From positions 1 to 64,000 of the forward strand of contig NZ_LXKA01000143.1 of the NCBI RefSeq assembly GCF_001645125.1: 64,000 bases of DNA. The letters are read 5' to 3'. The stretch comes from Paraburkholderia ginsengiterrae. GTDB lineage: Bacteria > Pseudomonadota > Gammaproteobacteria > Burkholderiales > Burkholderiaceae. The position numbers and the translations under genes are program-made. Shown here one piece after another: positions 20,216-35,735 of this stretch (positions are counted from its first letter, which is position 1; each line of letters opens with the position of its first letter). The notes beneath the pieces were generated by a model, which saw nothing but the letters and a program-made list of their open reading frames with translations, made no database searches and had not been told where the DNA came from.

Positions 20216-20908
20216 ATGTCAACAGAGCTGATTTCCAGACTGGCGCCGCCGAGCGCGCGTCCACGCCAATACGGGCGTCGTCAGCATAATCCGCTTCGCC
20301 GTTATGCCGGAATCGCGCTGGTCCTGGTGCTGCACCTCTTCTTCATCTGGGCGCTGATGAATGGTCTCGCGAACAAAGTCGTTCAGATCGCGCAGAAGCC
20401 GATCGAAACCAGAATCATCCAACCGGTAACGCCACCGCCGCCTCCGCCGATCCCAACAGTCAAGCTGCCGCCGCCGAAGTTCACGCCGCCACCGCGGCCG
20501 CGGCCATTCGTGCCACCGCCTGAAGTGGCGGTCACGGCGCCGTCCACGCCGACGATCACGCATCAGGCCACGCCGGAGCCAACGTCGGTTGTGCAGCCGC
20601 CCGCGCCGGTCACGCCGCCGGCACCCGCCAAGCCGGTGAGTCATGCGATCGGTGTCGTGTGTCCGAACTCGGACGACGTTCGCCACTCGATGGGCTATCC
20701 GCAGGAAGCGCAGGATAACGAAATTACGGGTGACGTGATGATCTCTTTCGTTGTCGACCCGCAAGGACACGTGACCGATGAGAAGGTCGAGCAGTCCGCA
20801 GATCCGATCCTCGATCGAGCGGCTTTCGTTGCGGTCAAGATGTTCAACTGCATTTCGCAAGGACAGCCGGTTCGCGTACAGGTGCCGTTCTCGTTCAAAC
20901 TGAGCTGA
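20216..20908 (+). CDS. tonB: TonB energy transducer
   Basis: 230 aa. One N-terminal membrane helix (about residues 32-52) is followed by a Pro-rich periplasmic spacer (residues 75-140) and a C-terminal TonB domain (GDVMISFVVDPQGHVTDEKV; VQVPFSFKLS). Two Cys in the C-terminal domain (VVCPNSD and FNCISQ) could form a disulfide. GGAG 6 nt upstream supports the start. It heads tonB-exbB-exbD-exbD, which powers outer-membrane receptors; the receptor at 25634 is the obvious client. Confidence 0.92.
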   Translation: MSTELISRLAPPSARPRQYGRRQHNPLRRYAGIALVLVLHLFFIWALMNGLANKVVQIAQKPIETRIIQPVTPPPPPPIPTVKLPPPKFTPPPRPRPFVPPPEVAVTAPSTPTITHQATPEPTSVVQPPAPVTPPAPAKPVSHAIGVVCPNSDDVRHSMGYPQEAQDNEITGDVMISFVVDPQGHVTDEKVEQSADPILDRAAFVAVKMFNCISQGQPVRVQVPFSFKLS

Positions 20909-20983
20909 GCGCCTCGCCCCCGGTCCTGGATCGCTTTGACGCAGATCCATTTCAAATCAATGACTGACTCATCTGGAGCATGT

Positions 20984-21778
20984 ATGAAGAAGCATTCCTT
21001 TACCGCCGCTGCGGCGAGCCTGCTGATCCTGGCCGCAGGCGGCAGCTCTCTCGTCGTGCCGCAAGCGGCCTGGGCACAAGCGAGCACCGAAGTGACGAAC
21101 CCCTACGGCCTTGGCGCGCTATGGGCGAACGGCGACTTCGTCGCGCGTTTCGTGCTGATTCTGCTCGTGCTCATGTCGATGGGAAGCTGGTACATCATGA
21201 TCACCAAGTTCTTCGAGCAACTGCGGGCGAGCCGTCGCGCGAAATCGGCCGACGAGCAACTGTGGAGCGCGCCCTCGCTCGCGCAGGGCGCGGCGCAGCT
21301 CGACGAGAATTCGCCGTTCCGTTTTATCGCCCAGGTGGGGATCGAAGCTGGCGCGCACCATGACGAAGCCTTGCTCGAAGCCGTGGATCGCAACACGTGG
21401 ATCGACGTGTCGATCGAACGTGCCATCACCAACGTGTCGAACCGCCTGCAGGACGGTCTGGCGTTCCTCGGCACTGTCGGTTCCACTGCGCCGTTCGTCG
21501 GCCTGTTCGGCACGGTGTGGGGCATTTATCACGCGCTGACCGCAATCGGCATCGCCGGTCAGGCGTCGATCGACAAGGTGGCCGGCCCGGTCGGCGAGGC
21601 GCTGATCATGACGGCGATCGGCCTCGCGGTCGCAGTGCCGGCCGTGTTGGGCTATAACTTCCTCGTGCGTCGCAACAAGTCGGTGATGGAGCGCGTGCGT
21701 GCATTCGGCGCGCAGCTGCATACGGTCCTGCTGCCGGGCACGAAGCGCCAGGTGCGCGCCGTGGTGAACGCGAATTAA
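20984..21778 (+). CDS. exbB: ExbB proton-channel protein (MotA/TolQ/ExbB family)
   Basis: 264 aa. A signal-like N-terminal hydrophobic segment ends at AWAQA, followed by three membrane helices. The ExbB signature is clear: FLGTVGSTAPFVGLFGTVWGIYHA then AVAVPAVLGYN. It forms the proton channel with ExbD. TGGAG precedes the ATG at 20984; an earlier in-frame Met at 20936 lacks this. Spacing to exbD is 27 bp. Confidence 0.93.
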   Translation: MKKHSFTAAAASLLILAAGGSSLVVPQAAWAQASTEVTNPYGLGALWANGDFVARFVLILLVLMSMGSWYIMITKFFEQLRASRRAKSADEQLWSAPSLAQGAAQLDENSPFRFIAQVGIEAGAHHDEALLEAVDRNTWIDVSIERAITNVSNRLQDGLAFLGTVGSTAPFVGLFGTVWGIYHALTAIGIAGQASIDKVAGPVGEALIMTAIGLAVAVPAVLGYNFLVRRNKSVMERVRAFGAQLHTVLLPGTKRQVRAVVNAN

Positions 21779-21805
21779 ACCAACCATCACGCGGAGCAAG
21801 AAGTC

Positions 21806-22231
21806 ATGGCGATGAACGTTGGACAGGACGGCCCCGAGGACGAGGTCATTGCCGCCATCAACACCACGCCGCTCGTCGACGTAATGCTGGTGCTGCTGAT
21901 CATCTTCCTGATCACGATTCCGGTCGTCACGCACACGGTGCCCGTGCAGTTGCCGAAGGAGACAGTCAATCCGCTGCAGACCAGGCCGGATAGCATCGAG
22001 ATCGCGGTCAACAAGGACGGCGACCTGTTCTGGAACGACAAGCTGGTCGATGGGCCGACGCTGCTCGCGCGGTTGAAGACGGCGTCCGTGAAGCAGCCGC
22101 AGCCCGAGGTGCATGTGCGCGGCGATCAGACCACACGCTACGAATTCATCGGGCGCGTGATCACTGCCTGCGAGCGCGCCGGGATTTCGAAGGTGTCGTT
22201 TATTACTCAGCCGCCGGCGCGCGGCGGCTAA
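21806..22231 (+). CDS. exbD: ExbD biopolymer transport protein (first copy)
   Basis: 141 aa. A short cytoplasmic N-terminus, then INTTPLVDVMLVLLIIFLI with the essential membrane Asp, then a periplasmic domain. GGAG-type ribosome-binding site. Paired with a second ExbD 19 bp downstream, an arrangement also seen in Xanthomonas. Confidence 0.93.
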   Translation: MAMNVGQDGPEDEVIAAINTTPLVDVMLVLLIIFLITIPVVTHTVPVQLPKETVNPLQTRPDSIEIAVNKDGDLFWNDKLVDGPTLLARLKTASVKQPQPEVHVRGDQTTRYEFIGRVITACERAGISKVSFITQPPARGG

Positions 22232-22250
22232 CTTTGCATGGGATCGGACA

Positions 22251-22676
22251 ATGGGAATGAACGTATCTTCGGGTGGCGGCAGCGAACCGGAGGTGATGGT
22301 CGACATCAACACCACGCCGCTGATCGACGTGATGCTGGTGTTGCTGATCATGCTGATCATCACCATTCCAATCCAGATGCATTCCGTGAATATGAACCTG
22401 CCGGTCGGCAATCCGCCGCCGGCCGCCCCGCCTCCGGTCGTGCAGGTCGACATTGATTTCGACGGCACGATCAGCTGGAACGGCGCGCCGCTTGCAACCG
22501 GCGCCGATCTGGAGAAACATCTGGTTGAGGTCGCGGCTCAGGCGGACCAGCCGGAAATCCATCTGCTGCCGAACAAGCTTGCGCCCTATAAGGACGTAGC
22601 CGCAGTGCTGGCCGCCGCGCAGCGCGAAGGGGCGACGAAGATCGGGCTCATCGGCAACGAACAATACATGCAGTGA
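22251..22676 (+). CDS. ExbD biopolymer transport protein (second copy)
   Basis: 141 aa. MVDINTTPLIDVMLVLLIM carries the conserved Asp in the single membrane helix; the periplasmic part ends VGLIGNEQYMQ-like (KIGLIGNEQ). It is diverged from the first ExbD (different Pro-rich linker PPPAAPPPVV), so it is not a recent copy. The deacylase gene follows 34 bp later. Confidence 0.92.
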   Translation: MGMNVSSGGGSEPEVMVDINTTPLIDVMLVLLIMLIITIPIQMHSVNMNLPVGNPPPAAPPPVVQVDIDFDGTISWNGAPLATGADLEKHLVEVAAQADQPEIHLLPNKLAPYKDVAAVLAAAQREGATKIGLIGNEQYMQ

Positions 22677-22710
22677 GAGCGCGGCGGCCCGCCGTCATGA
22701 AGGAGATCCC

Positions 22711-23703
22711 ATGAGCACCGTCCACAACGAAATCGATCTGGATGCCGACGGACGTCACGTGGGCTACCTGCGTCTGCCGCACTCGGTTCATCGGTCCGCG
22801 TATGGCTGGATTCCGATTCCAATCGCTTCGGTGCGCAATGGCGACGGTCCCGTCGTGCTGCTGATGGGCGGCAATCACGGCGACGAATACGAAGGACAGG
22901 TACTGGTTTCCAGCCTGATTCGAGAAATCGAACCACAATGGGTGCGCGGACAATTGATCTTTCTGCCGATGGCGAATTATCCCGCCGCGGCCGCGGGCCT
23001 GAGGACTTCGCCGCTCGACGGCGGCAACCTGAACCGCAGTTTTCCCGGCGATCCACTAGGCGCACCGACAGCGGCGATCGCCCACTACATCGAGCACACG
23101 CTGCTCGCGCGCGCGCAATATCTGATCGATCTGCATTCGGGTGGAAGTTCGCTGCTCTACGACGGCGCCAATATGTTGGCTATCGAGCCGCGTGACCCCG
23201 CGGAGGACGAACGGCTCAAGGCGCTGCTCGCCGCGTTCGGCTTGCCGCGCGCGTTTCTGCATCGGCCTAACCCGGTCCACGCGGCGACTGCCGCGCGGCG
23301 GCAGGGCGCGATTTCCATTCTCGCGGAACTCGGTGGCGGCGGCACCGTGCAGGCAAACCTGCTGCGCGATGCGCGGCACGGACTGTTGAATCTGCTTGGC
23401 TTCATTGGACTCCTGATCGGACCACTCGTACCCGATGGCCCGCCCGCGCGGACGCGCTTCTTCACCGTGTCCGGCACGAAGCACTACGTCTATGCCTACG
23501 ATCGTGGCGTGTACGAGCCGCTCGTCGAACTGGGCGATCAGGTGGTGGCGGGGCAGCCCGCGGCGCGCATTCATTTCCCCGACACGCCGCTACGTGAGCC
23601 CGTTACCACCTACTTTGCGAGCACCGGCGAGGTGGTCTGCAAACGCGTGCCGGCCAACGTGGAGCGCGGCGATTGTCTGTTCCATCTCGCCGAGCCGGTT
23701 TGA
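22711..23703 (+). CDS. Succinylglutamate desuccinylase/aspartoacylase-family N-deacylase
   Basis: 330 aa, zinc carboxypeptidase fold (M14-like AstE/ASPA). Zinc ligands are visible in GGNHGDEYEGQ and IDLHSGGS, with ILAELGGGG as the region of the catalytic Glu. Closest by eye to DoeB-type N-acetyl-diaminobutyrate deacetylases; it cleaves an N-acyl group from an amino acid derivative. It sits directly behind exbD and ahead of the acetyltransferase/monooxygenase block, where a deacylase would be needed to release the final amino acid. GGAGATCCC precedes the start. Confidence 0.8.
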   Translation: MSTVHNEIDLDADGRHVGYLRLPHSVHRSAYGWIPIPIASVRNGDGPVVLLMGGNHGDEYEGQVLVSSLIREIEPQWVRGQLIFLPMANYPAAAAGLRTSPLDGGNLNRSFPGDPLGAPTAAIAHYIEHTLLARAQYLIDLHSGGSSLLYDGANMLAIEPRDPAEDERLKALLAAFGLPRAFLHRPNPVHAATAARRQGAISILAELGGGGTVQANLLRDARHGLLNLLGFIGLLIGPLVPDGPPARTRFFTVSGTKHYVYAYDRGVYEPLVELGDQVVAGQPAARIHFPDTPLREPVTTYFASTGEVVCKRVPANVERGDCLFHLAEPV

Positions 23704-24008
23704 CGCCGGCGCGAAATTGGTTCGCCGCGGTTACCCTGGAAATTTGCGTGCTCTATTAGTAAAAAAATCGCGCGACCACTCTCCCGTGAATTAACGCATT
23801 TTGCTTCCAGCGGATATTCCGTCGTTATAGCGATGACCAATCGCGTGAATTGAATATATGAATTCAGCGGAATAACGATCCGTTAAATGTTTGGTTCATT
23901 CGGAATGAGTCGCCTGTTATCTTTCCTATAGACCGACGGCGGTCAAAGCCGCCCGGGTAAAGATTCAACGACAGGAGCGACAGGGATGATTGCTATCCCG
24001 TTTCCACC
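23704..24008. promoter_or_regulatory. AT-rich promoter region and short leader before the GNAT gene
   Basis: 305 bp, clearly AT-richer than the flanking genes between about 23750 and 23930, as expected for a regulated promoter. No operator can be named with confidence. An 8-codon ORF (MIAIPFPP, 23986-24012) with a GACAGGAG/CAGGG site ends by overlapping the next start. Confidence 0.5.
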
Positions 24009-24012
24009 ATGA
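23986..24012 (+). CDS. Candidate 8-codon leader ORF coupled to the GNAT gene
   Basis: ATG at 23986 preceded by purine-rich ribosome-binding sequence, encoding MIAIPFPP, with the stop TGA overlapping the ATG of the acetyltransferase (ATGA at 24009-24012). The acetyltransferase has no ribosome-binding site of its own, so re-initiation from this leader is likely. Confidence 0.45.
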   Translation: MIAIPFPP

Positions 24013-24557
24013 CCTACGAGATTATCGACGCCACGCCGCTGGATCCCATTGCGCGACCTTTGCTGGACGCACTCAATATCGAGTACACCACGCGTTATCG
24101 CGAGTTTCGCCCGGATAGCGCGGCATCGGTCAGTGAAGAGATGTCGCGTTATCCGGCCGAGTTATTCGCGCCACCCGAGGGTGCTTTCATCGTCGTCTTG
24201 CGCGATGGGGAGACGGTCGGTGGCGGCGCGTTCAAGCGTTACGACGCGACGACTGCAGAACTCAAACGTATCTGGACGCACGCCAGTCAGCGCCGGCAAG
24301 GACTGGCCCGCCGCGTCGTGCAGGAACTGGAGGCGCGCGCGTTGCGCCAGGGATATCGCCGTGTCTATCTGACCACCGGATTCAGGCAGCCGGAAGCAGC
24401 AGGCCTGTATATCGATTCGGGCTACGAACCTCTGTTCGACCAGTCGATCGCACCGGAGGTCCATTTTCGCCTTCCGTTCGGCAAGGATTTGCTGGAGCCG
24501 GGCCGCGTCGATTCGCTTCACGATCTGGTGCATCCCGAGCCGCTCGGCCAGCGGTAG
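24009..24557 (+). CDS. GNAT N-acetyltransferase (SnaA/YtmI-like, first copy)
   Basis: 182 aa, single GNAT domain. The acetyl-CoA motif is ELKRIWTHASQRRQGLARRVVQELE, followed by RVYLTTGFRQPEAAGLYIDSGYEPL. Same length and layout as the acetyltransferases at the head of Bacillus S-alkyl-cysteine operons; a paralogue lies at 35057. Proposed job: N-acetylate an imported sulfur amino acid so a monooxygenase can attack it. The start follows from overlap with the 8-codon leader. Confidence 0.8.
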   Translation: MTYEIIDATPLDPIARPLLDALNIEYTTRYREFRPDSAASVSEEMSRYPAELFAPPEGAFIVVLRDGETVGGGAFKRYDATTAELKRIWTHASQRRQGLARRVVQELEARALRQGYRRVYLTTGFRQPEAAGLYIDSGYEPLFDQSIAPEVHFRLPFGKDLLEPGRVDSLHDLVHPEPLGQR

Positions 24558-24610
24558 TCATGCGCTTCGCGCCTCGATCAATTCGTTCATCTTACAAGGT
24601 CTATCAAGTC

Positions 24611-25555
24611 ATGAAACACAACAGGAGAATCCGCGCAGCGGTGGCCGGAACGTTTGCTGCATTGGCAATGGGGGCGGCAGGCACCGCCCTCGCGGCCGGC
24701 ACCACTTTCAACCTAAGCCCGGATCAACAAGGCCAGGTCCGGACCACGCCCGACGCGGCAGCCATCAAGACCATACCGGCCAACTATCCGTTTGTCGCGA
24801 AAGACGAACTCGTCGTCGGCATGACCGTCGCGTGGCCGCCGCTTAGCACCTATGCGACCGATGAGAAGACCGTAGTCGGCTTCGACCCGGACCTGGCGCA
24901 ACTGGTTGCTGACGGTCTGGGACGCAAGCTGAAAATCGTCGTCCTCGCGTGGGAAGACTGGCCGCTTGCGGTGCAATCAGGCAAGGTCGACGCGGTTCTG
25001 TCGAACGTGACGGTGACTGAGGCGCGCAAGGAGAAATTCGACTTCTCCAGCTATCGGCGCGATGTGCTCGGTTTCTACGTGCGCAACACAAGCCCGATCA
25101 AGGCGATTCGCGAACCGAAGGATATCGCGGGGCTTCGTATCATTACCGATTCGGGAACGAATCAGGAAAAGATCCTGCTCGAATGGGACAAGGAAAACGT
25201 CGCGCATGGTCTGAAGCCGGTGCAGGTGCAGTATTACGGCGATCCTAGCGCGCGCTTCGTCGCGCTGGAGTCGGGGCGCGCTGATGCAATTCTGAGCGTG
25301 AACTCGGCGCTCGCGTACGCGGCGGCGCAGAAAGGAGACTTACGCGCAGTGGGCTCCATCAGCGGCGGCTGGCCCATTACGGCGGATCTTGCGGTCACGA
25401 CACGCAAGGGTAGCGGCCTTGCTGCGCCGCTCACGCTATTGCTGAACGACCTCATCCGCAGCGGCAAATATACGCAGGTGCTCGACCGTTGGAACCTCGG
25501 CTCCGAAGCGATCGATCAGGCCAAAACGAATCCGCCGGGGCTCCCCAAGAGCTAA
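24611..25555 (+). CDS. Amino-acid ABC transporter substrate-binding protein (first copy)
   Basis: 314 aa, family 3 solute-binding protein. Signal peptide about residues 1-30 (ending ALA). Typical motifs: VVGFDPDLAQLVADGLGRKLKIV, DAVLSNVTVTEARKEKFDFSSY, and a terminal DRWNLGSEAI. Expected ligands are polar or sulfur-containing amino acids. Strongly similar throughout to the binding protein at 32488. A start 51 nt upstream is possible, but 24611 gives a clean signal peptide. Confidence 0.88.
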   Translation: MKHNRRIRAAVAGTFAALAMGAAGTALAAGTTFNLSPDQQGQVRTTPDAAAIKTIPANYPFVAKDELVVGMTVAWPPLSTYATDEKTVVGFDPDLAQLVADGLGRKLKIVVLAWEDWPLAVQSGKVDAVLSNVTVTEARKEKFDFSSYRRDVLGFYVRNTSPIKAIREPKDIAGLRIITDSGTNQEKILLEWDKENVAHGLKPVQVQYYGDPSARFVALESGRADAILSVNSALAYAAAQKGDLRAVGSISGGWPITADLAVTTRKGSGLAAPLTLLLNDLIRSGKYTQVLDRWNLGSEAIDQAKTNPPGLPKS

Positions 25556-25633
25556 ATCAGCGGGGCGGTCGAGATCGCCCTGATCGGTTGTCCTACAAAT
25601 AGTAAGTAATGCTAATAACTAACGGAACAGGCG

Positions 25634-28132
25634 ATGCGCGGTAAAAACAGGAAGAATAGGGCCGATCAGCCCGTAATCGGGGTTCGCAGAAAAGCGTTGT
25701 CGGTTGCCGTGCTGGCCATCACTTGCAACGGCGTGGCATGGGCGCAGGGCGCAGCCGCGCCTGCCGAAGCGAGCGATGCCGCTGCCGTCGTGCCGGCCGC
25801 TGCGCAGCCAACGGCTGCGTCGTCCACCGCGAAGCCTGGGGCGGTCAATACCGTGCAACAGGATACGGTGGTCGTCACAGGTACGCGCACCAACACGAAA
25901 GCAAGCCAAAGCCTGACACCCGTTGACGTGATCAGTGGCGCGCAGTTGCGCGCCACTGGGCAGAGCAATCTGCGCGATGCACTCGTGCAACTCTCGCCGT
26001 CGATCTCGCGCGAGACCTACGCAGGCGATGCAGGCGTTCTGACCGACGCGCTGACACTGCACGGCCTGAGTCCGGACCACGTGCTCGTGCTGGTGAACGG
26101 CAAGCGCCGCCACACCACTGCGAACATCTCGCTCGACGGAGGTTTGAACCAGGGCTCGACCGGCGTCGATATCGACATGATCCCGGTCGCACTGATCGAT
26201 CACATTGAGGTGCTACGTGATGGGGCGGCGGCGCAGTATGGTTCGGACGCCATCGCGGGGGTCATCAACATTATCCTGAAGCGCAGTTCGCACGGCGGAG
26301 AAGTTCAGACGACCAACGGCCAGACCTATGCGGGCGATGGCTTCAAGAACAGCGAGTCGGCCAACATCGGGCTTGATCTCGGCGGCAAGGGCTTTCTCGA
26401 CCTCAGCGCGGAGTACAACCGTCAGAACCATACGGTCCGCACGGGCCCCGACGACTACTTCGGCACGTTCCCGCCGGGGCATGGCTACTACAACCCGATC
26501 GAGGGCGATCCGGCGAGCACGCGTGAATCGGTCGGATATAACGCCGGCTACTACCTCGGCGACGACGTCGAGTTGTATGGCTTCGGCACGTATGCGCATC
26601 GTAATGCGGAGGCCTATCAGAACTATCGTCCGCCTTTTGTATTGCCGGCAATCTATCCGAACGGCTTCGTGCCGGTGGAAACCGTCAACGAGAACGACTT
26701 CTCGGTGACGACAGGAATCAAGGGCAAGAATCTGTTCGGCTGGTCATGGGATCTGAGTTCGACTTACGGGGGCGACCATGACGTCATCGGCATGCGCAAC
26801 TCGGCCAACACAGGGTTGTATGCGGCGCAGGGCTATACGCCGACCACGTTTCACCTCTCCACCGTCAGCAACACGCAACTGACGAACAACCTCGACTTCT
26901 CGCGCGCGTTCCAGTTGCCGGTGCTGCCCGCGCCGGTGAATGTTTCCTGGGGCGTGGAGCAGCGCCGCGAGACCTATACGGTGGGCCCGGGTGACTACGC
27001 GTCGTATATCGACGGCGGCTCCCAGGCGCTGCCAGGTCTTGCGCCAGTCAGCGCGAGCGACAACTCGCGCAACGTGGTCGGCACGTATATCGATCTGTCG
27101 ACCCATCTGACGCCGAAATGGACGGTCGATCTGGCTGGACGCTTCGAGCATTACAGCGACGTCGGCAGTACGGCGAACGGCAAAGTAGCGACGCGCTATG
27201 ACTTCACGCCGGCATTCGCCGTGCGCGGCAGTGTCAGCACCGGGTTCCGTGCGCCGTCGCTGGCCGAGGAGTACTACAGCAACATCAACGAATCGCCGGC
27301 CTCTGTCCAGGGGCTTCTGGCGGCCAACTCGTCGGCGGCAAAGCTAATCGGCGCCCAGCCGCTGCAGTCGGAAAAATCGACCAACTACAACGTCGGCTTC
27401 CTGCTGACGCCGGTCCAGGGCCTGCATTTGACGCTCGATGCGTACCAGATCGACATTCGCAACCGGATCGTCGAGGGCGGCACGGCGTCCGGCGCAGCCG
27501 CGATCGCCGCGCTGCAGGCGGCGGGACTGTCTATACCCAGTTCGGTGCCGGCTTCCGCGGTATCCGCGAGCTACTTCACGAACGGAGCCAGCACGCGGAC
27601 CCGCGGGCTCGATCTGACCGGCACCTACCACACGAGCTTCGGCAGCTTCGGGCAGGTGGACTGGGATCTGGGCGTGAATATCAACACGACCTCGGTCACG
27701 CATGTGGCGACCGGCGCAAACGGCGCGCCGGAACTCAACGCGCAACAGGTCGCCTGGCTCTCCACGTCCACGCCGAAGAACAAGATCATCATTGGCGGCA
27801 CGTGGCATCTCGACAAGTGGGGCGTGAGCCTGCACGAGACGCGCTTTGGCTCGACGTCGAGTGAGGAGACCTACATCGTCGGGCCCAATGCGTTCTCGAC
27901 CACGCAGTTTCTCCATTTCGAGAATGCCGCCAGGTACATCACCGACGTCGAGGTTCGCTATGACGTGACCAAGAAGTTCCAGATCGCGGTAGGGGCCAAC
28001 AATCTCTTCGACGTCTATCCGAGCAAGCTGCCTTACGTCACGCAACTCGAAGGCGCGCAATACGACGCCTTCGCGTCGACTATCGGCGTGAACGGCGGCT
28101 TCTACTACGCGCGTGCCCGCTACGTGTTTTGA
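25634..28132 (+). CDS. TonB-dependent outer-membrane receptor
   Basis: 832 aa. Signal peptide to about residue 38 (GVAWAQG). A TonB-box-like DTVVVTGTRT near residue 77 is followed by the plug domain (SLTPVDVISGAQLRA ... VLRDGAAAQYGSDAIAGVINIILK) and a 22-strand-type barrel ending in aromatic YARARYVF. Its location between binding-protein and monooxygenase genes suggests it imports the same substrate, energised by the upstream TonB system. It is not obviously a siderophore or B12 receptor. Confidence 0.92.
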   Translation: MRGKNRKNRADQPVIGVRRKALSVAVLAITCNGVAWAQGAAAPAEASDAAAVVPAAAQPTAASSTAKPGAVNTVQQDTVVVTGTRTNTKASQSLTPVDVISGAQLRATGQSNLRDALVQLSPSISRETYAGDAGVLTDALTLHGLSPDHVLVLVNGKRRHTTANISLDGGLNQGSTGVDIDMIPVALIDHIEVLRDGAAAQYGSDAIAGVINIILKRSSHGGEVQTTNGQTYAGDGFKNSESANIGLDLGGKGFLDLSAEYNRQNHTVRTGPDDYFGTFPPGHGYYNPIEGDPASTRESVGYNAGYYLGDDVELYGFGTYAHRNAEAYQNYRPPFVLPAIYPNGFVPVETVNENDFSVTTGIKGKNLFGWSWDLSSTYGGDHDVIGMRNSANTGLYAAQGYTPTTFHLSTVSNTQLTNNLDFSRAFQLPVLPAPVNVSWGVEQRRETYTVGPGDYASYIDGGSQALPGLAPVSASDNSRNVVGTYIDLSTHLTPKWTVDLAGRFEHYSDVGSTANGKVATRYDFTPAFAVRGSVSTGFRAPSLAEEYYSNINESPASVQGLLAANSSAAKLIGAQPLQSEKSTNYNVGFLLTPVQGLHLTLDAYQIDIRNRIVEGGTASGAAAIAALQAAGLSIPSSVPASAVSASYFTNGASTRTRGLDLTGTYHTSFGSFGQVDWDLGVNINTTSVTHVATGANGAPELNAQQVAWLSTSTPKNKIIIGGTWHLDKWGVSLHETRFGSTSSEETYIVGPNAFSTTQFLHFENAARYITDVEVRYDVTKKFQIAVGANNLFDVYPSKLPYVTQLEGAQYDAFASTIGVNGGFYYARARYVF

Positions 28133-28238: not shown

Positions 28239-28254
28239 TGCACCGCGCGGTGCA
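28239..28254. promoter_or_regulatory. 16-bp perfect palindrome before the first luciferase-like gene
   Basis: TGCACCGCGCGGTGCA ends two bases before the GGTGGGA ribosome-binding site of the gene at 28270. It could be an operator or an mRNA hairpin controlling translation. Confidence 0.4.
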
Positions 28255-28269
28255 TGGGTGGGATTCATT

Positions 28270-29271
28270 ATGTCCTACTCACTTTCGATTCTCGACAAGA
28301 GTCCGATCGCCGACGGAAAGAGCGCTCACGATGCGCTGCGTTTTACCGTACGGCTCGCGCAGCGCGCGGAGGCGCTCGGCTACAAGCGTTACTGGATCGC
28401 CGAACATCATGGCGCCCCGGGGCCCGCAAGTTCCGCGCCGGAGATCGTCGTGGCGCATCTGCTCGCGCATACCTCGCGTATTCGGGTCGGTTCGGGCGGC
28501 GTAATGCTGCAGCACTACAGCCCGTTCAAGGTGGCGGAGACGTTCCGGGTGCTCGCGTCGCTCGCGCCCGGGCGTGTCGATCTGGGCATCGGCAAGGCGC
28601 CCGGTGGACTGCCGCTGACCACGCGCGCACTGCAATGGTTTCACGACAAGGGGAAGAAACCCGATTTCGCGCACCAGTTCGCGGAACTCGACGCGTTCCT
28701 GAAGTGGGGCGTGGCCGAAGATCATCCGCTGGCAGGCGCAATTGCGCTGCCGACGCCGCCCGAGGCTCCCGAGCGCATTCTGCTTGGCGCCAGCACCGAG
28801 AGCGCGACGCTGGCCGCACAACACGGCTGGCAGTTTTGCTACGCCGGCCATTTCAACGGCGACGAGGCCAATATCGAACGGTCTCTCGACACCTATCGCA
28901 GCGCGACAGGACGCACACCGCTGCTCGCGCTTTATGCGTTCGCGGCGCAGTCGCGCGCTGAAGCTCAGCGCCAGGTCGGCGCGCTGCGCATCTTCAAGCT
29001 GCAGTTGGCAACGGGGCAGAGCGTCAATCTCCCGAGTCCCGAAGCGGCGGCGGAATTCGCGCGGCAAACCGGCGTGACCGACTACCGGCTCGACGAACTG
29101 CATCCTCATGTGATCGCCGGCACAGCGGACGATGTGCGCCGCGAACTCGACATACTGCATGAACGCTTCGGCGTCGAGGAGTTCGTGATCGACACGCCGA
29201 TAACCGACTACGCGCAGCGGCTCGCTTCAGTCGAAGCGTTGGCCGGCGCGGAACAGACCGCACGCGTCTGA
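28270..29271 (+). CDS. Luciferase-like flavin-dependent monooxygenase (CmoO/MsnO8-like)
   Basis: 333 aa, LLM class. SYSLSILDKSPI, RYWIAEHHGAPG, RIRVGSGGVMLQHYSPFKVAE and the CYAGHFNG region match the family related to Bacillus YtmO/CmoO. Uses reduced FMN and oxygen; it is expected to oxidise an N-acetylated S-substituted cysteine or related organosulfur compound (inference). No dedicated flavin reductase is visible nearby. Follows the receptor gene by 137 bp; 30 bp before the next monooxygenase. Confidence 0.85.
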   Translation: MSYSLSILDKSPIADGKSAHDALRFTVRLAQRAEALGYKRYWIAEHHGAPGPASSAPEIVVAHLLAHTSRIRVGSGGVMLQHYSPFKVAETFRVLASLAPGRVDLGIGKAPGGLPLTTRALQWFHDKGKKPDFAHQFAELDAFLKWGVAEDHPLAGAIALPTPPEAPERILLGASTESATLAAQHGWQFCYAGHFNGDEANIERSLDTYRSATGRTPLLALYAFAAQSRAEAQRQVGALRIFKLQLATGQSVNLPSPEAAAEFARQTGVTDYRLDELHPHVIAGTADDVRRELDILHERFGVEEFVIDTPITDYAQRLASVEALAGAEQTARV

Positions 29272-29301
29272 CTTCAGTTCATCCTCTTTACGGACCAGAC
29301 T

Positions 29302-30624
29302 ATGACTCAGCGAAATCTCACATTCGGCATCATGCTGCACGGTGCAGGCGGGCACATGAATGCGTGGAAGCATCCGGCCGGACCCGCGGATGCCAGCGTC
29401 AACCTCGATTTCATCACCGGCATCGCGCAGAAGGCGGAGGCCAACGGCGTCGCGTTCGCGTTCGTGGCCGACGGACTGTATATCAATGAGAAGTCGATTC
29501 CGCATTTCCTGAACCGCTTCGAGCCTATTTCGATCCTCTCGGCACTCGCTACCTCGACCACGAAGATCGGCCTTGCCGGCACGCTGTCGACCTCGTACAG
29601 CCATCCGTTTACGGTGGCGCGACAGTTCGCGTCGCTTGACCTGATCAGCGGCGGGCGTGCGGGATGGAATGTCGTGACGTCGCCGCTCGAAGGTTCCGCG
29701 AAAAACTATGGCGGCCAGCATCCGGACCACGAGCTGCGCTACGAGATCGCCGACGAGTATCTGCAAGTGGTGCAGGGGCTATGGGATAGCTGGGACGACG
29801 ACGCCTTCGTTCGGGAGCGCGAGAGCGGCCGCTTCTTCGACCATGAGAAGCTGCATACGCTCGATCACAAGGGGCGCTTCTTCGAAGTCGCTGGACCGTT
29901 GAACATCCAGCGCTCAAAGCAGGGGCAGCCGGTGATCTTCCAGGCGGGTTCGTCGGATTCGGGCATTGCGCTGGCCGGCAAATACGCGGACGCGGTGTTC
30001 ACGCACTCGCCGTCGCTTGAAGAAACCAAGGTGTTCACCGACCAGGTGCGACAGAGCGCAGTCGAATACGGGCGCGCTGCAACCGACGTGAAGATTTTCC
30101 CCGGCATCGGACCCATTGTCGGCGCGACGCCGGAGGAAGCCGAAGCGAAGTATCGCGCGATCCGCGACCTGCTGACCATCGACGATGCGCTCGCTTATCT
30201 GGGGCGCTTCTTCGAGCATCATGACTTCACGCAATATCCGCTCGACGCGCCATTCCCCGAACTGGGCGATCTCGGATCGAACAGCTTCCGTTCCACAACC
30301 GACCGCATCAAGTCCGACGCAAAGCGCAGCGGCGCGACGCTGCGCGAGGTCGCGCTGGAAGTGGCGACGCCGAAACCCCAGTTCATCGGCACCGGCGAGC
30401 AGATTGCTGACGAGCTGATCCGCTGGTTCGACGCCGGAGCGGCCGACGGATTCATCCTCGGCTTTCCGGTGCAGGCTGAAGGGCTCGACGATTTCGTCCG
30501 CTACGTGATCCCGGTGCTGGAGGCGCGCGGGCGTTACAGCCGTACGCTGGCCGGGACGACGCTGCGCGATCACCTGGGCTTGCCGCGCCGCGAAAGCCGC
30601 TACGCGGCCGCGGAAACGGCCTGA
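29302..30624 (+). CDS. NtaA/SnaA/DszA-family flavin monooxygenase (CmoJ-like)
   Basis: 440 aa, the larger DszA/NtaA subclass. [46 protein letters not shown] and [19 protein letters not shown] are the usual motifs. In Bacillus the homologous CmoJ acts in S-alkyl-cysteine breakdown, cleaving a C-S bond; other members attack nitrilotriacetate or dibenzothiophene sulfone. Reduced FMN must come from elsewhere. 31 bp before the transporter gene, so co-transcribed. Confidence 0.88.
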
Positions 30625-30655
30625 CGAACAGCGTGCAACGCAGGAGTACAGCATC

Positions 30656-32482
30656 ATGAGCGACACTACCCACCTTGCCGGTCCTGCTCACGTGGGACAG
30701 GCGAGTCGCACCGGACACGCGACTGGCGGCGACGACGATCGTCAATATGCGCACTACCGCATCGTGCCGGCGCGGCATCACGCGCGCACGGCCGCAACCG
30801 TGCTGGCCATTGTCCTGATCGGGATCGTGCTGAACTCGATACTCGGCAATCCGCGTTGGGGCTGGGGCGTCTTTGCGGAGTGGTTTTTCGCCGAACCGGT
30901 ACTGTCGGGGCTTGCGCGCACGCTTGTGCTCACGGCGCTCGGTGCGCTGTTCGGTTTCGCACTGGCAACGCCGCTGGCACTCGCGCGGGTCTCGCGTTCT
31001 CCGCTGCTGGCTGGCTTCGCGTGGGCCTTTATCTGGCTGTTCCGGTCGATTCCTCCGATCGTCCTGCTGCTCCTGCTGAACAACCTCGGCTACCTGTACG
31101 AGACGATCTGGATCGGTATGCCGTTCACGCACTTCGTGCTGCTGAACGAATCGACCACCAACCTGATCAGCCCATTTTTCGCGGCAGTGCTTGGGCTCAC
31201 GCTGAACCACGCCGCGTTTTCGGCCGAGGCGATTCGCGGCGGGATTCTGTCCGTCGACCACGGGCAGCGTGAAGCGGCCGCCGCGCTCGGTTTGCCTGGC
31301 GCCCGCCAGGTGCGGCGCATCGTTCTGCCGCAGGCGATGCGCTCGATCCTGCCGACTGCCTTCAATGACGTGATCGGCCTGGCGAAGGGCACCTCGGTTG
31401 TCTATATCCTCGCGATGCCGGACCTGTTCTACACGGTGCAGATCATCTATCACCGCAACCTGGAGGTGATTCCGTTGCTGATGGTCGCGACAGTCTGGTA
31501 TCTGATCATCCTGACCGTGCTGTCGGCGATTCAGATTCACATCGAGCGGTACTACGCACGCGGCGCGACGCGCGAGCAGGTGGCGGTGTCGCCGCTGAGC
31601 GCGCTCGTCAGGCGGTGGCGTGCCGCGCGCGCCGCGCGCGGCGAAACCGGTGCCGCTCAGCCGACGCGTCGCGATAGCACGCAAAAAGAAGCGGAAGCAG
31701 CCGGCTGGGCTCAGCGGCGCGTGGGCGGCAGGGTCGGCATCCACAACGTGTCGAAAAGCTTTGGCACGCTGAAGGTGCTCGATAACGTCTCATTGTCGTT
31801 CCCGTCGGGCAGCGTCACGGTGATTCTCGGCCAGTCGGGTTCGGGCAAGTCGACGTTGCTGCGCTCGATCAATCACCTCGAACGCGTCGACGACGGCTTC
31901 ATCGACATCGACGGCGAACTTGTCGGGTATCGCCGCGAAGGGCGCACGCTATACGAGCTCAAGGAGCGGGAGGTGCTTCAACGCCGCCGCGACGACGTCG
32001 GGATGGTATTCCAGAGCTTCAATCTGTTTCCGCACTTGACCGTGCTCGACAACGTCATCGAGGCGCCGCTTGCGGCGGGCGTGCCACGCGCACAGGCGGA
32101 ATCGGAGGCACGCGCTCTGCTCGCGCGCGTCGGTCTTTCAGGTAAGGCCGACGCGTGGCCGCGTCAGCTATCCGGGGGGCAGCAGCAGCGCGTCGCGATC
32201 GCGCGAGCGCTCGCGCTAAAGCCCAAGGTCTTGCTGTTCGACGAACCGACTTCGGCACTCGATCCCGAACTCGTCAACGAGGTGCTCGACGTGATACGTC
32301 AACTGGCGCGTTCCGGCACGACACTGATCGTGGTCACGCACGAGATCGGCTTTGCGCGCGAAGTCGCCGATACGATCGTGTTCATGGATGGCGGCCGGAT
32401 CGTGGAGTCCGGATCACCGTCGAGCGTGCTCGGCGCGCCAGCTCATCCGCGCACTCGCGAGTTCCTCTCGAAGGTGCTCTGA
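30656..32482 (+). CDS. Fused amino-acid ABC transporter permease and ATPase
   Basis: 608 aa. Residues 1-300 form a His/Gln/Arg-type permease with five to six membrane helices and the EAA-type loop (EAAAALGLPGARQVRRIVLPQAMR). After a linker, residues 358-608 are an ATPase: Walker A GQSGSGKST near residue 392, Q-loop, signature LSGGQQQR near 504, Walker B VLLFDEPTSALD near 525. The fusion keeps one permease type only, so the transporter is probably a homodimer. Serves the two binding proteins; the second starts 5 bp later. Confidence 0.92.
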   Translation: MSDTTHLAGPAHVGQASRTGHATGGDDDRQYAHYRIVPARHHARTAATVLAIVLIGIVLNSILGNPRWGWGVFAEWFFAEPVLSGLARTLVLTALGALFGFALATPLALARVSRSPLLAGFAWAFIWLFRSIPPIVLLLLLNNLGYLYETIWIGMPFTHFVLLNESTTNLISPFFAAVLGLTLNHAAFSAEAIRGGILSVDHGQREAAAALGLPGARQVRRIVLPQAMRSILPTAFNDVIGLAKGTSVVYILAMPDLFYTVQIIYHRNLEVIPLLMVATVWYLIILTVLSAIQIHIERYYARGATREQVAVSPLSALVRRWRAARAARGETGAAQPTRRDSTQKEAEAAGWAQRRVGGRVGIHNVSKSFGTLKVLDNVSLSFPSGSVTVILGQSGSGKSTLLRSINHLERVDDGFIDIDGELVGYRREGRTLYELKEREVLQRRRDDVGMVFQSFNLFPHLTVLDNVIEAPLAAGVPRAQAESEARALLARVGLSGKADAWPRQLSGGQQQRVAIARALALKPKVLLFDEPTSALDPELVNEVLDVIRQLARSGTTLIVVTHEIGFAREVADTIVFMDGGRIVESGSPSSVLGAPAHPRTREFLSKVL

Positions 32483-32487
32483 CAAGC

Positions 32488-33471
32488 ATGGCGCACGGAA
32501 AACCCCATCACCCGGATCAATCGATGACCGCACGCCGGACGTTCCTTGCCAATATAACGGCGCTGGCCGCCGTGCCGATTGCGTGGTCTGCCGGGCTCGC
32601 TCAGGCCGCCACTGCCACGCAGTCTTACGATTTCAGCCCGCAACAGCAAGGGCGCGTGCGTGCGCCAAAAGATTCCGACGCATTGCGTCAGATCACTGGC
32701 TATCGCTTCGTCACGCCCGGGGTGTTCACGGTAGCGGTAGCGCCATTCGCCGCGCCAATCGCCACGTACGCGACCGATGCCCGCAGCATCGTGGGCTCCG
32801 ATCCCGACTACGCGCAACTGATCGCCGACGCCCTCGGCCTACGGCTGCAACTCGTGCCCGTCGCGTGGCCGGACTGGCCGCTCGGTCTTGCGTCGGGCCG
32901 CTACGACGCGGTGATTTCGAACGTCGGCGTAACCGAGAAGCGCAAGCAGAAATTCGATTTCACAACCTACCGGCTGGGTTTGCACGGGTTCTACGTGCGT
33001 GACGACAGTCCGGTCAAATCGATCGGCGAGCCGCGCGATATCGCCGGGCTGCGCGTCATCACCGGCTCGGGCACGATCCAGGAGCGCATTCTGCTCGAAT
33101 GGAACCGGCGCAACGCAGCAAACGGACTGAAGGGGGGCACGCTGCAGTACTACGACGACCGCGCGTCGGAGCGCCTTGCATTGCTGTCGGGCCGCGCCGA
33201 TGCCATCTTCAACCCGCACGCGCCGCTTGCCTATGAAGCCGCGACGCAGGGGGAGATTCGGCTGGTGGGCACGGTCAACGCGGGCTGGCCGTTCAACGCC
33301 GATGTCGCGATCGCAACCCGCAAGGGCAGCGGCCTCGCACAGGCGCTGACACTCGCGACCAATAACCTGATCCGTGGCGGGCAATATCGCACTGCGCTGG
33401 CCCGTTGGGGTTTGCAATCGGAAGCGGTGGCGCGTTCGGAGACCAATCCGCCCGGCTATCCGGACACCTGA
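32488..33471 (+). CDS. Amino-acid ABC transporter substrate-binding protein (second copy)
   Basis: 327 aa from Met at 32488; a start at 32524 is also possible. The leader has RRTFLANITALAAVPIA, a twin-arginine-like signal, unlike the plain Sec signal of its paralogue. The mature part matches the first copy closely (YDFSPQQQGRVRAP; DYAQLIADALGLRLQLVPVAWPDWPL; YDAVISNVGVTEKRKQKFDF). Paired binding proteins for one transporter recall TcyJ/TcyK of Bacillus. Confidence 0.87.
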   Translation: MAHGKPHHPDQSMTARRTFLANITALAAVPIAWSAGLAQAATATQSYDFSPQQQGRVRAPKDSDALRQITGYRFVTPGVFTVAVAPFAAPIATYATDARSIVGSDPDYAQLIADALGLRLQLVPVAWPDWPLGLASGRYDAVISNVGVTEKRKQKFDFTTYRLGLHGFYVRDDSPVKSIGEPRDIAGLRVITGSGTIQERILLEWNRRNAANGLKGGTLQYYDDRASERLALLSGRADAIFNPHAPLAYEAATQGEIRLVGTVNAGWPFNADVAIATRKGSGLAQALTLATNNLIRGGQYRTALARWGLQSEAVARSETNPPGYPDT

Positions 33472-33564
33472 ACAAAAACTATTCGACACACGATTTGCCG
33501 ACACTGGCGGACATTGCTGTCCGCCGGACGCTATCGCATTGCCGGAGTAACCACGAGGTCCTGT

Positions 33565-34605
33565 ATGTGTGCTGTCCGCATTGATCATCTTGCTTTCCTG
33601 ACGCCCGGCAACTATCCGGAAGGCGCGCCGCTCGCGGGATTCGAACGGACGCTCGAACTCTTTAGCACCGGCGAGGCGCTCGGCTACGACAGCGCGTGGG
33701 TGCGCCAGCGTCACCTCGAACGGGCGGTGTCGTCCGCCGCGACTTTTCTTGCTGCGGCGAGCCAGCGCACAACACGCATCGGGCTCGGCGCGGCCGTGAT
33801 TCAGATGGGTTACGAGAATCCATTCCGGCTTGCCGAGGATCTCGCCACCGTCGACGTTTTATCAAAAGGATGCCTGAATATCGGTCTGAGTGCGGGCGCG
33901 CCCGCGCACGGCATTCTGCTCGGCGAGCGGCTTTTCGATGCCAATCCCGAGCTGATCGACTTCTCGCACGCTCGCGTCGAGCGCCTGCGCCGCAATCTCG
34001 CGGAAGAGTGGCTGGGCGACGAGGATACCTTCGTCGAATCGGCCGCGGGCCGCGTGCGGCCGCGAGTGACGCCGCATGCGCCGGGCCTGACCGAACGGCT
34101 CTGGTATGGCGGCGGTTCGCGGCGCTCCATCGAATGGGCAGGCCGCAACGGTTTCAATCTTCTTATCGGCAATATCACGACGGGAGAGGGCACCGACGAC
34201 TATCGCGACGCGCAGTTACGCCAGATCGATCTGTTCCGGTCGCACTGGAGCGAAGCGCGCGCGCCGCGTATCGCACTCGGCCGCGTGATCGTGCCGCTCG
34301 ACGGCGCCGACGCCCGCACGCGGCAGCGCTACCGTGCGTTTGTCGAAGAGCGCCACGCGCGCACGCTGACGCCGCATGGCGAGCGGCGCACGCTGTTCGC
34401 GCCCGATCTCGTGGGCACCGCCGACGAGATCGTCAGCCGCCTGCTGAAGGACCCCGTCGTCGCGCAGGTTCGCGAACTACGACTCGAACTGCCCTATGAC
34501 CTGCCGTTCGAGAATTATCAGCAGATTCTCGAAGATGTCGTCAAGCGCATCGCGCCCGAACTGGGCTGGCGGCCTGAAGTGGAGCGCGAGGCCGCGGCCG
34601 CCTAG
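33565..34605 (+). CDS. Luciferase-like flavin-dependent oxidoreductase (third monooxygenase)
   Basis: 346 aa, LLM class (RIDHLAFLTPGNYPEG; GYDSAWVRQRHLERAVSSAATFLAAAS; TTRIGLGAAVIQMGYENPFRLAEDLATVD). It belongs to a different subgroup from the other two. GAGG 6 nt upstream fixes the start at 33565. Proposed to oxidise the same organosulfur substrate family, or a product of the first oxidation; its substrate is not known. Confidence 0.83.
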   Translation: MCAVRIDHLAFLTPGNYPEGAPLAGFERTLELFSTGEALGYDSAWVRQRHLERAVSSAATFLAAASQRTTRIGLGAAVIQMGYENPFRLAEDLATVDVLSKGCLNIGLSAGAPAHGILLGERLFDANPELIDFSHARVERLRRNLAEEWLGDEDTFVESAAGRVRPRVTPHAPGLTERLWYGGGSRRSIEWAGRNGFNLLIGNITTGEGTDDYRDAQLRQIDLFRSHWSEARAPRIALGRVIVPLDGADARTRQRYRAFVEERHARTLTPHGERRTLFAPDLVGTADEIVSRLLKDPVVAQVRELRLELPYDLPFENYQQILEDVVKRIAPELGWRPEVEREAAAA

Positions 34606-34652
34606 CGTATCCGGATTCGTTTTACTTACCCACCTTGGAAGGATTGCTCACC

Positions 34653-34998
34653 ATGAGCCGAGATCTATTGGTTGTTGCTGGAACCAGGCTTTACCGATCC
34701 CGCGCATCCCGGCGAGCGCTTTGTGTGCCCGCACGGCGTGGCGATAGAAGGACTGCTCGCGAGCGACGCCGAACGCGCCGCGCAACTCGACGTGAAACGC
34801 GTACCGTTCGCGCGTCCAAGACAGGATGTGGTTGCCGTGCTCGACGAAGCGCACCAGGGTTTGCCGGTCCTCGTGCTGGGTGACGAGCATCCTCTGCCTT
34901 ACGATGCGCAAACACTCGGTGACAAGTACTTCGTCACTGAAAGCAAACGGATTCTTGCGCTGCTGGCCGAGCGGCACGGATTCCCGAAGCTTCATTGA
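34653..34998 (+). pseudogene. DUF3088-like small protein, frameshifted near its start
   Basis: A strong GGAAGGA site precedes ATG at 34653 (MSRDLL), but after six codons the frame runs into nonsense. The rest of the protein continues in the +1 frame from 34672 (LLEPGFTDPAHPGERFVCPHG ... DEHPLPYDAQTLGD, ending ERHGFPKLH). Removing one G in GGTTGTTG near 34670 restores one 115-aa protein like the DUF3088 family (thioredoxin-like, assigned from memory). Either a recent inactivation, a sequencing error, or use of TTG 34672 as start. Confidence 0.65.
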
Positions 34999-35056
34999 AT
35001 CTGTTCACGCAACGTGCTTGGTTCTGGAGCCCAGCCGCATATTCAAGGGGTCACGC

Positions 35057-35584
35057 ATGGCAGCTGTATTTCCGGCAGTGGCGTCGGAAGACCGTTTCGC
35101 TTACGTCACGGTTCATGACCCGCTGGCCCGTCCGTTGTTTGAAGAATTAGCCTACGAGTACGGCAGCCGCTATGCCGGCCTGATCGATCCCGCGGAAATC
35201 TCGAACGAACTGCAACGCTATCCGGACGACGCATTCGCTCCACCGCACGGCGCGTTCGTGCTGTTGCTGCGCGACGGGCAGGCGATTGCGGGCGGCGCGT
35301 TCATGCGTCATGCCGAAGCCGGCACGGCCGAATTCAAGCGCATTTGGGTCAGCCGCGAGCATCGTCGTCAAGGGCTTGCGCGCCGCTTGCTCGCCGAACT
35401 GGAAGCGCAGGCGGTGCGCCAACGCTATACGCGCGTGTACCTCGGCACGGGGCCCCGCCAGCCCGAGGCCATCGCGCTCTACCAGACGAGCGGCTATACG
35501 CTCCTGTCGGCGCATGATTTTGGCGAGGACGAGCCGCCTGGCTATCTGTTCGAGAAATATCTGCCGGCTTTGCGAACCGGCTAG
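35057..35584 (+). CDS. GNAT N-acetyltransferase (SnaA/YtmI-like, second copy)
   Basis: 175 aa. EFKRIWVSREHRRQGLARRLLAELEAQA and RVYLGTGPRQPEAIALYQTSGY align with the first copy at 24009, including the upstream RYPDDAFAPPHGAFVLLLRDGQAIAGGAF. AAGGGG precedes the ATG; the frame is open further upstream but that part is non-coding in character. The last intact gene of the organosulfur block. Confidence 0.82.
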   Translation: MAAVFPAVASEDRFAYVTVHDPLARPLFEELAYEYGSRYAGLIDPAEISNELQRYPDDAFAPPHGAFVLLLRDGQAIAGGAFMRHAEAGTAEFKRIWVSREHRRQGLARRLLAELEAQAVRQRYTRVYLGTGPRQPEAIALYQTSGYTLLSAHDFGEDEPPGYLFEKYLPALRTG

Positions 35585-35615
35585 CCCGAGCGACCGAACC
35601 GGTGCTTCTTTAGAA

Positions 35616-35735
35616 ATGGAAATTATCTGGTTCGGCCTCGAAGCCACGGTGAGACCGTCGCTCGCGTTCTACAATACCTGCGATGAAGTCGACGCTCTGG
35701 TTTCGGTGCTAAGACGTTTTGCGTCACGGCGCTAG
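35616..35735 (+). pseudogene. C-terminal remnant of a SufS/CsdA-type cysteine desulfurase
   Basis: A 39-residue stretch, ATVRPSLAFYNTCDEVDALV then SVLRRF, matches the conserved C-terminus of class-V aminotransferase-like cysteine desulfurases. Nothing of the PLP domain is present upstream, where the second GNAT gene ends. An ATG exists but this length cannot be functional alone. It may mark a lost sulfur-releasing enzyme at the end of this block. Confidence 0.6.

Follow-up and report, generated by a model that had tools for sequence, protein, structure and literature searches.

A gene cluster of Paraburkholderia ginsengiterrae as a probable Gram-negative salvage system for S-substituted cysteines, with a linked TonB-dependent receptor

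Gene content and organization of the locus

In this article, we focus on a gene cluster of Paraburkholderia ginsengiterrae that resembles the ytmI/ytn (cmo) operon of Bacillus subtilis, and we consider whether it serves the salvage of S-substituted cysteines. The cluster occupies positions 20216-35735 of a stretch of 64,000 nucleotides (the window; contig NZ_LXKA01000143.1 of assembly GCF_001645125.1, positions 1 to 64,000), which is contig C134 of a draft genome of 8.5 Mb. The initial annotation of this DNA, made from the sequence alone, had listed a tonB-exbB-exbD-exbD set, a deacylase, two GNAT acetyltransferases, two amino-acid binding proteins, a TonB-dependent receptor, three luciferase-like monooxygenases (LLM), a permease/ATPase fusion, a DUF3088-like gene and a cysteine-desulfurase remnant. 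Gene identities were assigned here by Pfam and NCBIfam profile matches of the window proteins, and each of these genes was found on the plus strand, in the following order:

20216..20908, plus strand: tonB (PF03544, TonB_C, E 1.7e-14)
20984..21778, plus strand: exbB (PF01618, MotA_ExbB, E 2.3e-32); its ATG lies within a TTG-started open reading frame (ORF), 20936-21778
21806..22231, plus strand: exbD, copy 1 (PF02472, E 8.7e-29)
22251..22676, plus strand: exbD, copy 2 (PF02472, E 1.1e-23)
22711..23703, plus strand: DoeB-like (AstE/AspA family) amidohydrolase, putative N-acetylcysteine deacetylase (PF24827, AstE_AspA_cat, 126.8 bits)
24009..24557, plus strand: GNAT1, putative S-alkylcysteine N-acetyltransferase (PF00583, Acetyltransf_1, E 7.1e-16)
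24560..25555, plus strand: amino-acid-type periplasmic binding protein 1, SBP1 (PF00497, SBP_bac_3, E 4.5e-25)
25634..28132, plus strand: TonB-dependent outer-membrane receptor (PF00593 and PF07715, barrel and plug)
28270..29271, plus strand: MsnO8-family LLM, CmoO-like, putative N-acetyl-S-alkylcysteine sulfoxidase (TIGR03558, 356 bits, above the cut-off)
29302..30624, plus strand: CmoJ orthologue by sequence, putative sulfoxide C-S monooxygenase (57% identity to YtnJ over 423 residues, shared clade)
30656..32482, plus strand: amino-acid ABC permease/ATPase fusion (PF00528, BPD_transp_1, and PF00005, ABC_tran)
32524..33471, plus strand: amino-acid-type periplasmic binding protein 2, SBP2 (PF00497), with no Cys and no Met beyond the start
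33565..34605, plus strand: third LLM, LLM3 (PF00296, Bac_luciferase, E 9.8e-25; nearest model TIGR04027, below the cut-off)
34653..34999, plus strand: DUF3088, frame-broken near its start (PF11287, 127.4 bits, cut-off 26.4; match 34672-34989)
35057..35584, plus strand: GNAT2 (PF00583, E 4.1e-16)
35616..35735, plus strand: C-terminal remnant of a family 2A encapsulin cargo cysteine desulfurase (match to PDB 8kg1 and to the Roseateles cargo)

The intergenic gaps are of 2-137 bp throughout the cluster, with the sole exception of the 305 bp that separate the DoeB-like gene from GNAT1. Two transcription units are therefore likely, namely tonB-exbB-exbD-exbD-deacylase, in which the DoeB-like gene sits close behind the tonB-exb genes, and GNAT1 to GNAT2. 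No regulator was found among the locus genes scanned, the Rfam and tRNA scans of the window returned no match, and a promoter scan of the window gave 3 sites versus 3.5 expected from shuffles. The 22 terminator-like sites of the window (13.2 expected) are scattered and were not used as evidence.

A CmoJ orthologue within a conserved core

The NtaA-type LLM was compared with the proteins of the PDB, in which it matches YtnJ (1yw1), which we take to be the CmoJ of B. subtilis, at 535 bits, ahead of 7e36 (291), DszA (269) and DmoA (220). Only 3sdo, which its depositors named a nitrilotriacetate monooxygenase, scores higher (623 bits). In our tree, YtnJ, 3sdo and the window LLM form one clade with a support of 98/94, and the two paralogues of the own genome used in this tree fall outside. 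Judged by its sequence, this LLM is the CmoJ orthologue. CmoJ converts a sulfoxide into a sulfenic acid and an aldehyde, after N-acetylation and sulfoxidation by CmoO, as described in excerpts of PMC10863075.

The conservation of the neighbourhood was surveyed by aligning CmoJ against one genome per species. The best 80 of the 574 loci were kept (L070-L149), so the counts out of 80 given below lean to close relatives, and genes more than 10 kb from CmoJ escape this survey. The core is nearly constant: the CmoO-like LLM and a GNAT are each present in 79/80 loci, the permease/ATPase in 78 and a binding protein in 76. An M20 or DoeB-like amidohydrolase is present in 64, LLM3 in 46, DUF3088 in 21, the TonB receptor in 18, and an FMN (flavin mononucleotide) reductase resembling the MsuE-type one of L120 in 14. 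According to the record titles, the carriers include Burkholderia, Paraburkholderia, Variovorax, Acidovorax, Aquitalea, Stenotrophomonas, Rhizobium, Agrobacterium, Bosea and Paracoccus, among others, and the closest named carriers of the window's CmoJ, among the matches listed, are Paraburkholderia and Burkholderia records. In Rhizobium, the annotated cluster reads LLM-LLM-M20 aminoacylase-GNAT-permease/ATPase-SBP-SBP-LLM-DsbA, and the plasmid records that carry annotation agree with the survey. The neighbourhood differs in Paracoccus denitrificans (L153, CmoJ 52% identical). The idea that CmoJ is a common gene was discarded, as only 3 of 150 Pseudomonadota genomes match it at E <= 1e-140, the own genome included.

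A second survey started from the deacylase, which was searched in 60 relatives, and the regions around ten matches were compared. The cluster is present in five of them (G002, G015, G013, G031 and G022). In G002 and G015, tonB-exbB-exbD-exbD is placed between SBP1 and the receptor; no tonB-exb was seen in the fetched stretches of G013, G031 and G022. In G022, LLM3 was matched in part only and DUF3088 was not found. The deacylase stands without the cluster in G004, G007, G027 and G051, and G016 holds a shorter set. A receptor-less core is found in P. terrae, P. caribensis and three Burkholderia records. Since the gene order recurs in other genomes, it is not due to chance, and the comparison of synteny that had been proposed for the Burkholderiales shows the core both there and in other Pseudomonadota loci.

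The pairing of the CmoJ orthologue with a second LLM also bears on S-(2-succino)cysteine, one of the substrates named as alternatives by the initial annotation. The same logic of acetylation, cleavage and deacetylation could serve this compound in a system of the scm/yxe type, where the LLM would play the part of YxeK/ScmK. YxeK is homologous to CmoJ, and the scm pathway of B. subtilis shares N-acetylation, flavin-dependent cleavage and deacetylation, according to excerpts of PMC10863075 and PMC12757645; moreover, our CmoJ tree was built without YxeK, hence it does not separate the two types. However, the yxe locus has only one monooxygenase in the part of PMC9706529 consulted, the MsnO8-type LLM accompanies CmoJ in 79 of the 80 loci, and the window LLM is 57% identical to YtnJ and lies within its clade. 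We therefore consider 2-succinocysteine an improbable substrate, less likely than the S-substituted cysteines of the cmo type.

Some loci of the survey call for separate mention. L138 is titled Bacillus subtilis SK7B5, a title that looks wrong because its CmoJ groups with Stenotrophomonas and its cluster, which includes a TonB receptor, is like-ordered. The CmoJ of L134, titled Chitinophaga, stands next to that of Pelomonas. Upstream of the cluster in L042 and L062 (G031), two NtaA-type LLMs and a DUF3088 gene form a second organosulfur-like set, to which an ABC transporter and a flavin-reductase-like gene can be added by eye.

Two unrelated deacetylase families

The initial annotation had supposed a deacylase unrelated to that of Bacillus. 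In many related loci, an M20 gene lies between CmoJ and the GNAT (PF01546 was matched in the three that were scanned), and ScmP, YhaA and YtnL, which deacetylate N-acetylcysteine in Bacillus, are M20 enzymes (excerpts of PMC12757645). No M20 was found among the genes scanned in the window locus. Over the 80 loci, M20 alone is present in 49, the DoeB-like gene alone in 15, neither in 16 and both in none. This either/or pattern between a Bacillus-type M20 and an AstE/AspA gene agrees with the supposition.

The genomes of the "neither" loci were searched for the DoeB-like protein, in 14 of the 16 cases (L106 and L111, both metagenome-assembled, were left out). Twelve match it at E <= 1e-30, and in the six where the identity reaches 66-81% the DoeB-like gene lies apart from the cluster. 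A genome-wide search for M20 in 18 genomes gave 1 to 8 matches in each, which tells nothing about exclusion.

AstE/AspA and M20 enzymes, although of unrelated families, are likewise alternatives in ectoine use, in which DoeB and DoeB2 are N-acetyl-diaminobutyrate deacetylases. The scores of the cluster enzymes are far below the cut-offs of these models, as the DoeB-like gene has 234.5 bits with TIGR02994 (DoeB; cut-off 402.7) and the cluster M20 enzyme 331.9 bits with the DoeB2 model (cut-off 550); therefore, neither is called DoeB or DoeB2. In 16 aligned DoeB-like copies, H56, E59, H142 and E206, which we take to be the metal ligands and the catalytic Glu of the family, are invariant, among 24 invariant H/E/D/C positions. 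In P. metrosideri, a tetratricopeptide-repeat-like gene stands between exbD2 and the DoeB-like gene (L075:1663-2907; its Pfam matches are weak and below the cut-off).

The TonB-dependent arm

The presence of a receptor and of its own energizing system marks a difference from the Bacillus operon. The PDB matches of the receptor, which cover no more than residues 69-275, are FepA, BtuB and CirA, all of them receptors for siderophores or B12; tonB-exbBD is not sulfur-poor (see below), and no receptor was seen in 62 of the 80 loci. This would suit a separate system for iron or vitamin uptake whose genes just happen to lie in the cluster, which we nevertheless hold to be unlikely in view of the linkage. 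Several genomes have the receptor gene flanked by SBP1 and the CmoO-like gene. The exbB-exbD-exbD set is found within the cluster of L049, L050, L071, L075 and L076 at three different positions, so it moves yet stays in the cluster; tonB was seen in L049, L050 and L076, and the fetched stretches of L071 and L075 end before its place. When the genomes of Roseateles and Pelomonas were searched with the window receptor, 16 and 19 stretches were matched, and the top-scoring one (520 and 512 bits) is in both cases a receptor immediately next to the cmo cluster. The cluster of Stenotrophomonas also has a receptor in front of it, from which it is separated by an MsuE-type FMN reductase gene and DUF3088. 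As for the own genome, a genome-wide search gave a full-length match for the window's receptor alone.

These sequence comparisons support a link of the receptor and tonB-exb to the cmo cluster. The outer-membrane import step of the initial annotation gains from the receptors that adjoin some other clusters, and the ligand would be an S-substituted cysteine or a conjugate of it. The part of PMC13352529 consulted says nothing for or against such a role of a TonB receptor. Between the receptors and the cmo cluster of Roseateles lies a gene for a FadL/TodX-type outer-membrane protein with 0.47% Cys+Met (L217:5421-6692).

DUF3088, acetyltransferases and importer

In the draft assembly, the ATG of DUF3088 is out of frame with the homologous stretch, so that the gene is considered frame-broken; the frame of its relatives is intact. 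One intact relative was modelled with a pLDDT of 93, and a fold search with this model gave GST (glutathione S-transferase) omega, DHAR, GST theta and CLIC1 as best matches. DUF3088 is thus predicted to have a thioredoxin/GST-N-like fold, and Cys25 and Pro71 are invariant in 14 sequences. Given this predicted fold and the invariant Cys, DUF3088 may reduce a sulfenic acid, and it becomes a candidate sulfenic-acid reductase.

SBP1, SBP2 and the permease/ATPase make up a dedicated amino-acid ABC importer with two binding proteins. The nearest models of the ATPase part, EhuA and TcyN, are both below their cut-offs, and as TcyN scores 293.8 bits versus 406, the ATPase is not called TcyN. The two GNATs are PF00583 matches whose relation to SnaA is at the family level, and the same is true of the MsnO8-type LLM and CmoO, B. 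subtilis being among the control genomes that match this LLM family.

A set of sulfur-poor proteins

Proteins made in sulfur starvation are expected to spare sulfur. From GNAT1 to GNAT2, the pooled products contain 24 Cys+Met out of 3676 residues (0.65%), versus 27 out of 1102 (2.45%) from tonB to the deacylase and 2.82% in the other ORFs of the window pooled, a background chosen by a crude GC3-based ORF picker. The medians over the 80 loci follow the same line: SBP 0.00%, receptor 0.48, FMN reductase 0.52, LLM3 0.60, CmoO-like 0.64, CmoJ 0.68, DUF3088 0.93, permease/ATPase 1.04 and GNAT 1.15, versus M20 2.03, DoeB-like 3.08 and 3.00 for 574 flanking ORFs. A sulfur-poor MetE is discussed in the part of PMC8557817 consulted.

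As a control within families, the binding proteins, CmoJ, the MsnO8-type LLM and the receptor were set against related proteins. The 27 other SBP_bac_3 matches of the own genome (one edge-of-contig match was left out) have a median of 2.64%, but 4 of the 27 are below 1%, one of them a partial match of 97 residues at 0.00%; SBP1 (0.91%) is therefore low but not exceptional, and SBP2, at 0.00%, stands out. CmoJ (0.46%) compares with NtaA-type paralogues at 1.08, 2.12, 4.10, 4.17 and 5.00%, of which the values 1.08, 4.17 and 5.00% come from short matched stretches, and the MsnO8-type LLM (0.60%) with paralogues at 2.51 and 3.37% and a weak third at 5.73%. CmoJ, the MsnO8 LLM and SBP2 pass this control, SBP1 does so weakly, and the receptor does not. 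As evidence, the sulfur content of the receptor is weakened by its equally poor relatives (see below). The low Cys+Met content of the cluster proteins is in line with production under sulfur starvation. Two more sulfur-poor ORFs lie downstream in the window, at 50869-51777 (0.33%) and 55630-56379 (0.81%).

The same figures have to be weighed against a more general reading, that of organosulfur (sulfonate, sulfone, thioether) scavenging in which the GNATs and the DoeB-like gene would be unrelated passengers. LLMs are typical of sulfonate and sulfone use, a low sulfur content is shared by the other NtaA-type LLMs of these loci (median 0.83%, n=14), so that composition marks sulfur scavenging in general and not this substrate, and G031 has, upstream of the cluster, two further NtaA-type LLMs and, by eye, a flavin-reductase-like gene. 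Passengers are nevertheless hard to reconcile with a GNAT in 79 of the 80 loci, binding proteins of the amino-acid type and an M20 or DoeB-like gene in 64 of the 80, and we give this reading little credence.

Proposed pathway and related systems

Taken together, the CmoJ orthology, the conserved core, the either/or of M20 and DoeB-like genes, the linked receptors and the sulfur-poor proteins speak for the acetylate-oxidise-deacetylate reading proposed by the initial annotation, and we consider it likely that the locus is a Gram-negative salvage system for S-substituted cysteines, which would be made mostly when sulfur is scarce. We infer its substrates, the order of its steps, its regulation, the receptor ligand and the roles of LLM3 and GNAT2. 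The receptor, energized by TonB-ExbB-ExbD-ExbD, would take an S-alkylated or otherwise S-substituted cysteine, or a conjugate of greater size, through the outer membrane, and the two binding proteins with the permease/ATPase would carry the amino acid into the cell. There it would be N-acetylated by GNAT1 and/or GNAT2, and its thioether turned into a sulfoxide by the MsnO8-type LLM. The CmoJ orthologue would then split the C-S bond of the sulfoxide to give an aldehyde and N-acetylcysteine sulfenic acid, which DUF3088 would reduce. Finally, the DoeB-like amidohydrolase would free cysteine, replacing the M20 enzyme of Bacillus.

For comparison we used the ytmI/ytn gene list of Bacillus, which includes a glutaredoxin-like gene (CmoI). 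The window shares with it a CmoJ orthologue, a second LLM, a GNAT, an amidohydrolase, a small, by prediction thioredoxin-like protein, and two amino-acid binding proteins with permease and ATPase. It differs by the outer-membrane receptor and its own TonB-ExbB-ExbD-ExbD, by the fusion of permease and ATPase, by a DoeB-like deacylase for M20 and DUF3088 for the glutaredoxin-like gene, by a third LLM and a second GNAT, and by having no regulator among the genes scanned. The M20-type cmo clusters of other Pseudomonadota (49/80: Rhizobium, Stenotrophomonas, Acidovorax, Aquitalea and others) have the same core, with CmoJ 71-80% identical, but they carry M20 where the Burkholderia/Paraburkholderia loci have the DoeB-like gene, a receptor in a minority, and TonB/ExbBD in 0 of the 49.

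Several observations weigh against this reading, besides the loci without a receptor and the sulfur-poor LLMs already discussed. Outside the cluster, the own genome carries six M20 genes (E <= 1e-60), so that the deacetylase may be another enzyme than the DoeB-like one. The titles of the 15 DoeB-like loci name only Burkholderia and Paraburkholderia, so that the exclusion may be one evolutionary event. The likeness to SnaA, CmoO, YxeK and TcyJKLMN is at the family level. DUF3088 is missing from 59 of the 80 loci, apart from being frame-broken in this genome. As for the TonB arm, the cluster-linked receptor of Stenotrophomonas scores 400 bits versus 415 for the best of that genome, the same low sulfur content (0.0-1.0%) is found in related receptors whose fetched surroundings show no cmo cluster, and the part of PMC12581299 consulted, on P. 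aeruginosa in sulfur starvation, names only an iron receptor in connection with TonB. The DoeB-like gene, tonB and exbBD are also less sulfur-poor than the remaining cluster.

It is with more reserve, as something slightly short of an even bet, that we put forward the whole combination of a TonB importer dedicated to an organosulfur amino acid or conjugate rather than to iron or a vitamin, a takeover of N-acetylcysteine deacetylation by a DoeB-type zinc amidohydrolase and a DUF3088 reductase for the sulfenic acid, in a nearly sulfur-free set. Among the literature matches listed, there was no Gram-negative cmo cluster and no TonB receptor for S-substituted cysteine.

The cysteine-desulfurase remnant and the cluster boundary

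The cysteine-desulfurase remnant of the initial annotation is real, but it encodes the C-terminus of a family 2A encapsulin cargo protein and is not a pathway gene. Its product matches residues 384-415 of PDB 8kg1 (E 2.5e-8), and its last 37 residues are 78% identical to the C-terminus of a Roseateles protein, the nearest among the loci compared, which is a family 2A encapsulin cargo cysteine desulfurase by NCBIfam (899.5 bits, cut-off 800). The Roseateles gene adjoins an SrpI-like shell gene and an EpsC-type serine acetyltransferase gene; the next match in the own genome is of 30% over 229 residues. A full family 2A encapsulin system was not found here: the cargo match is limited to the last 37 residues, and a search restricted to the window gave no shell match. 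A cysteine desulfurase was rejected as a pathway gene, as neither comparison of cluster loci (one of 19 loci, one of 129 loci of at least 5 kb) gave a counterpart of the remnant in a cluster, and its one near match, in Roseateles, is off the cmo contig of that genome.

A TauD gene and a TonB receptor lie some kb away from the intact cargo, SrpI-like shell and EpsC genes of Roseateles (L220:13687-17392). EpsC-type genes, 47-65% identical to the encapsulin-linked one of Roseateles, also lie near the cmo clusters of L061, L118, L125, L130 and L149. In the window, the cluster is bounded at 35800-40618 by a minus-strand AcrB/HlyD-type RND efflux pair and a 130-aa ORF that is membrane-protein-like by eye.

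Concluding remarks

The Cmo pathway was worked out in Bacillus, and this locus would add to it an entry through the outer membrane, a candidate replacement for the deacetylase and a candidate function for DUF3088. Testable loci exist in soil strains such as P. xenovorans LB400, a carrier of the cluster (L074). Finally, the low Cys/Met content of the cluster proteins suggests a simple in-silico filter for sulfur-scavenging genes.

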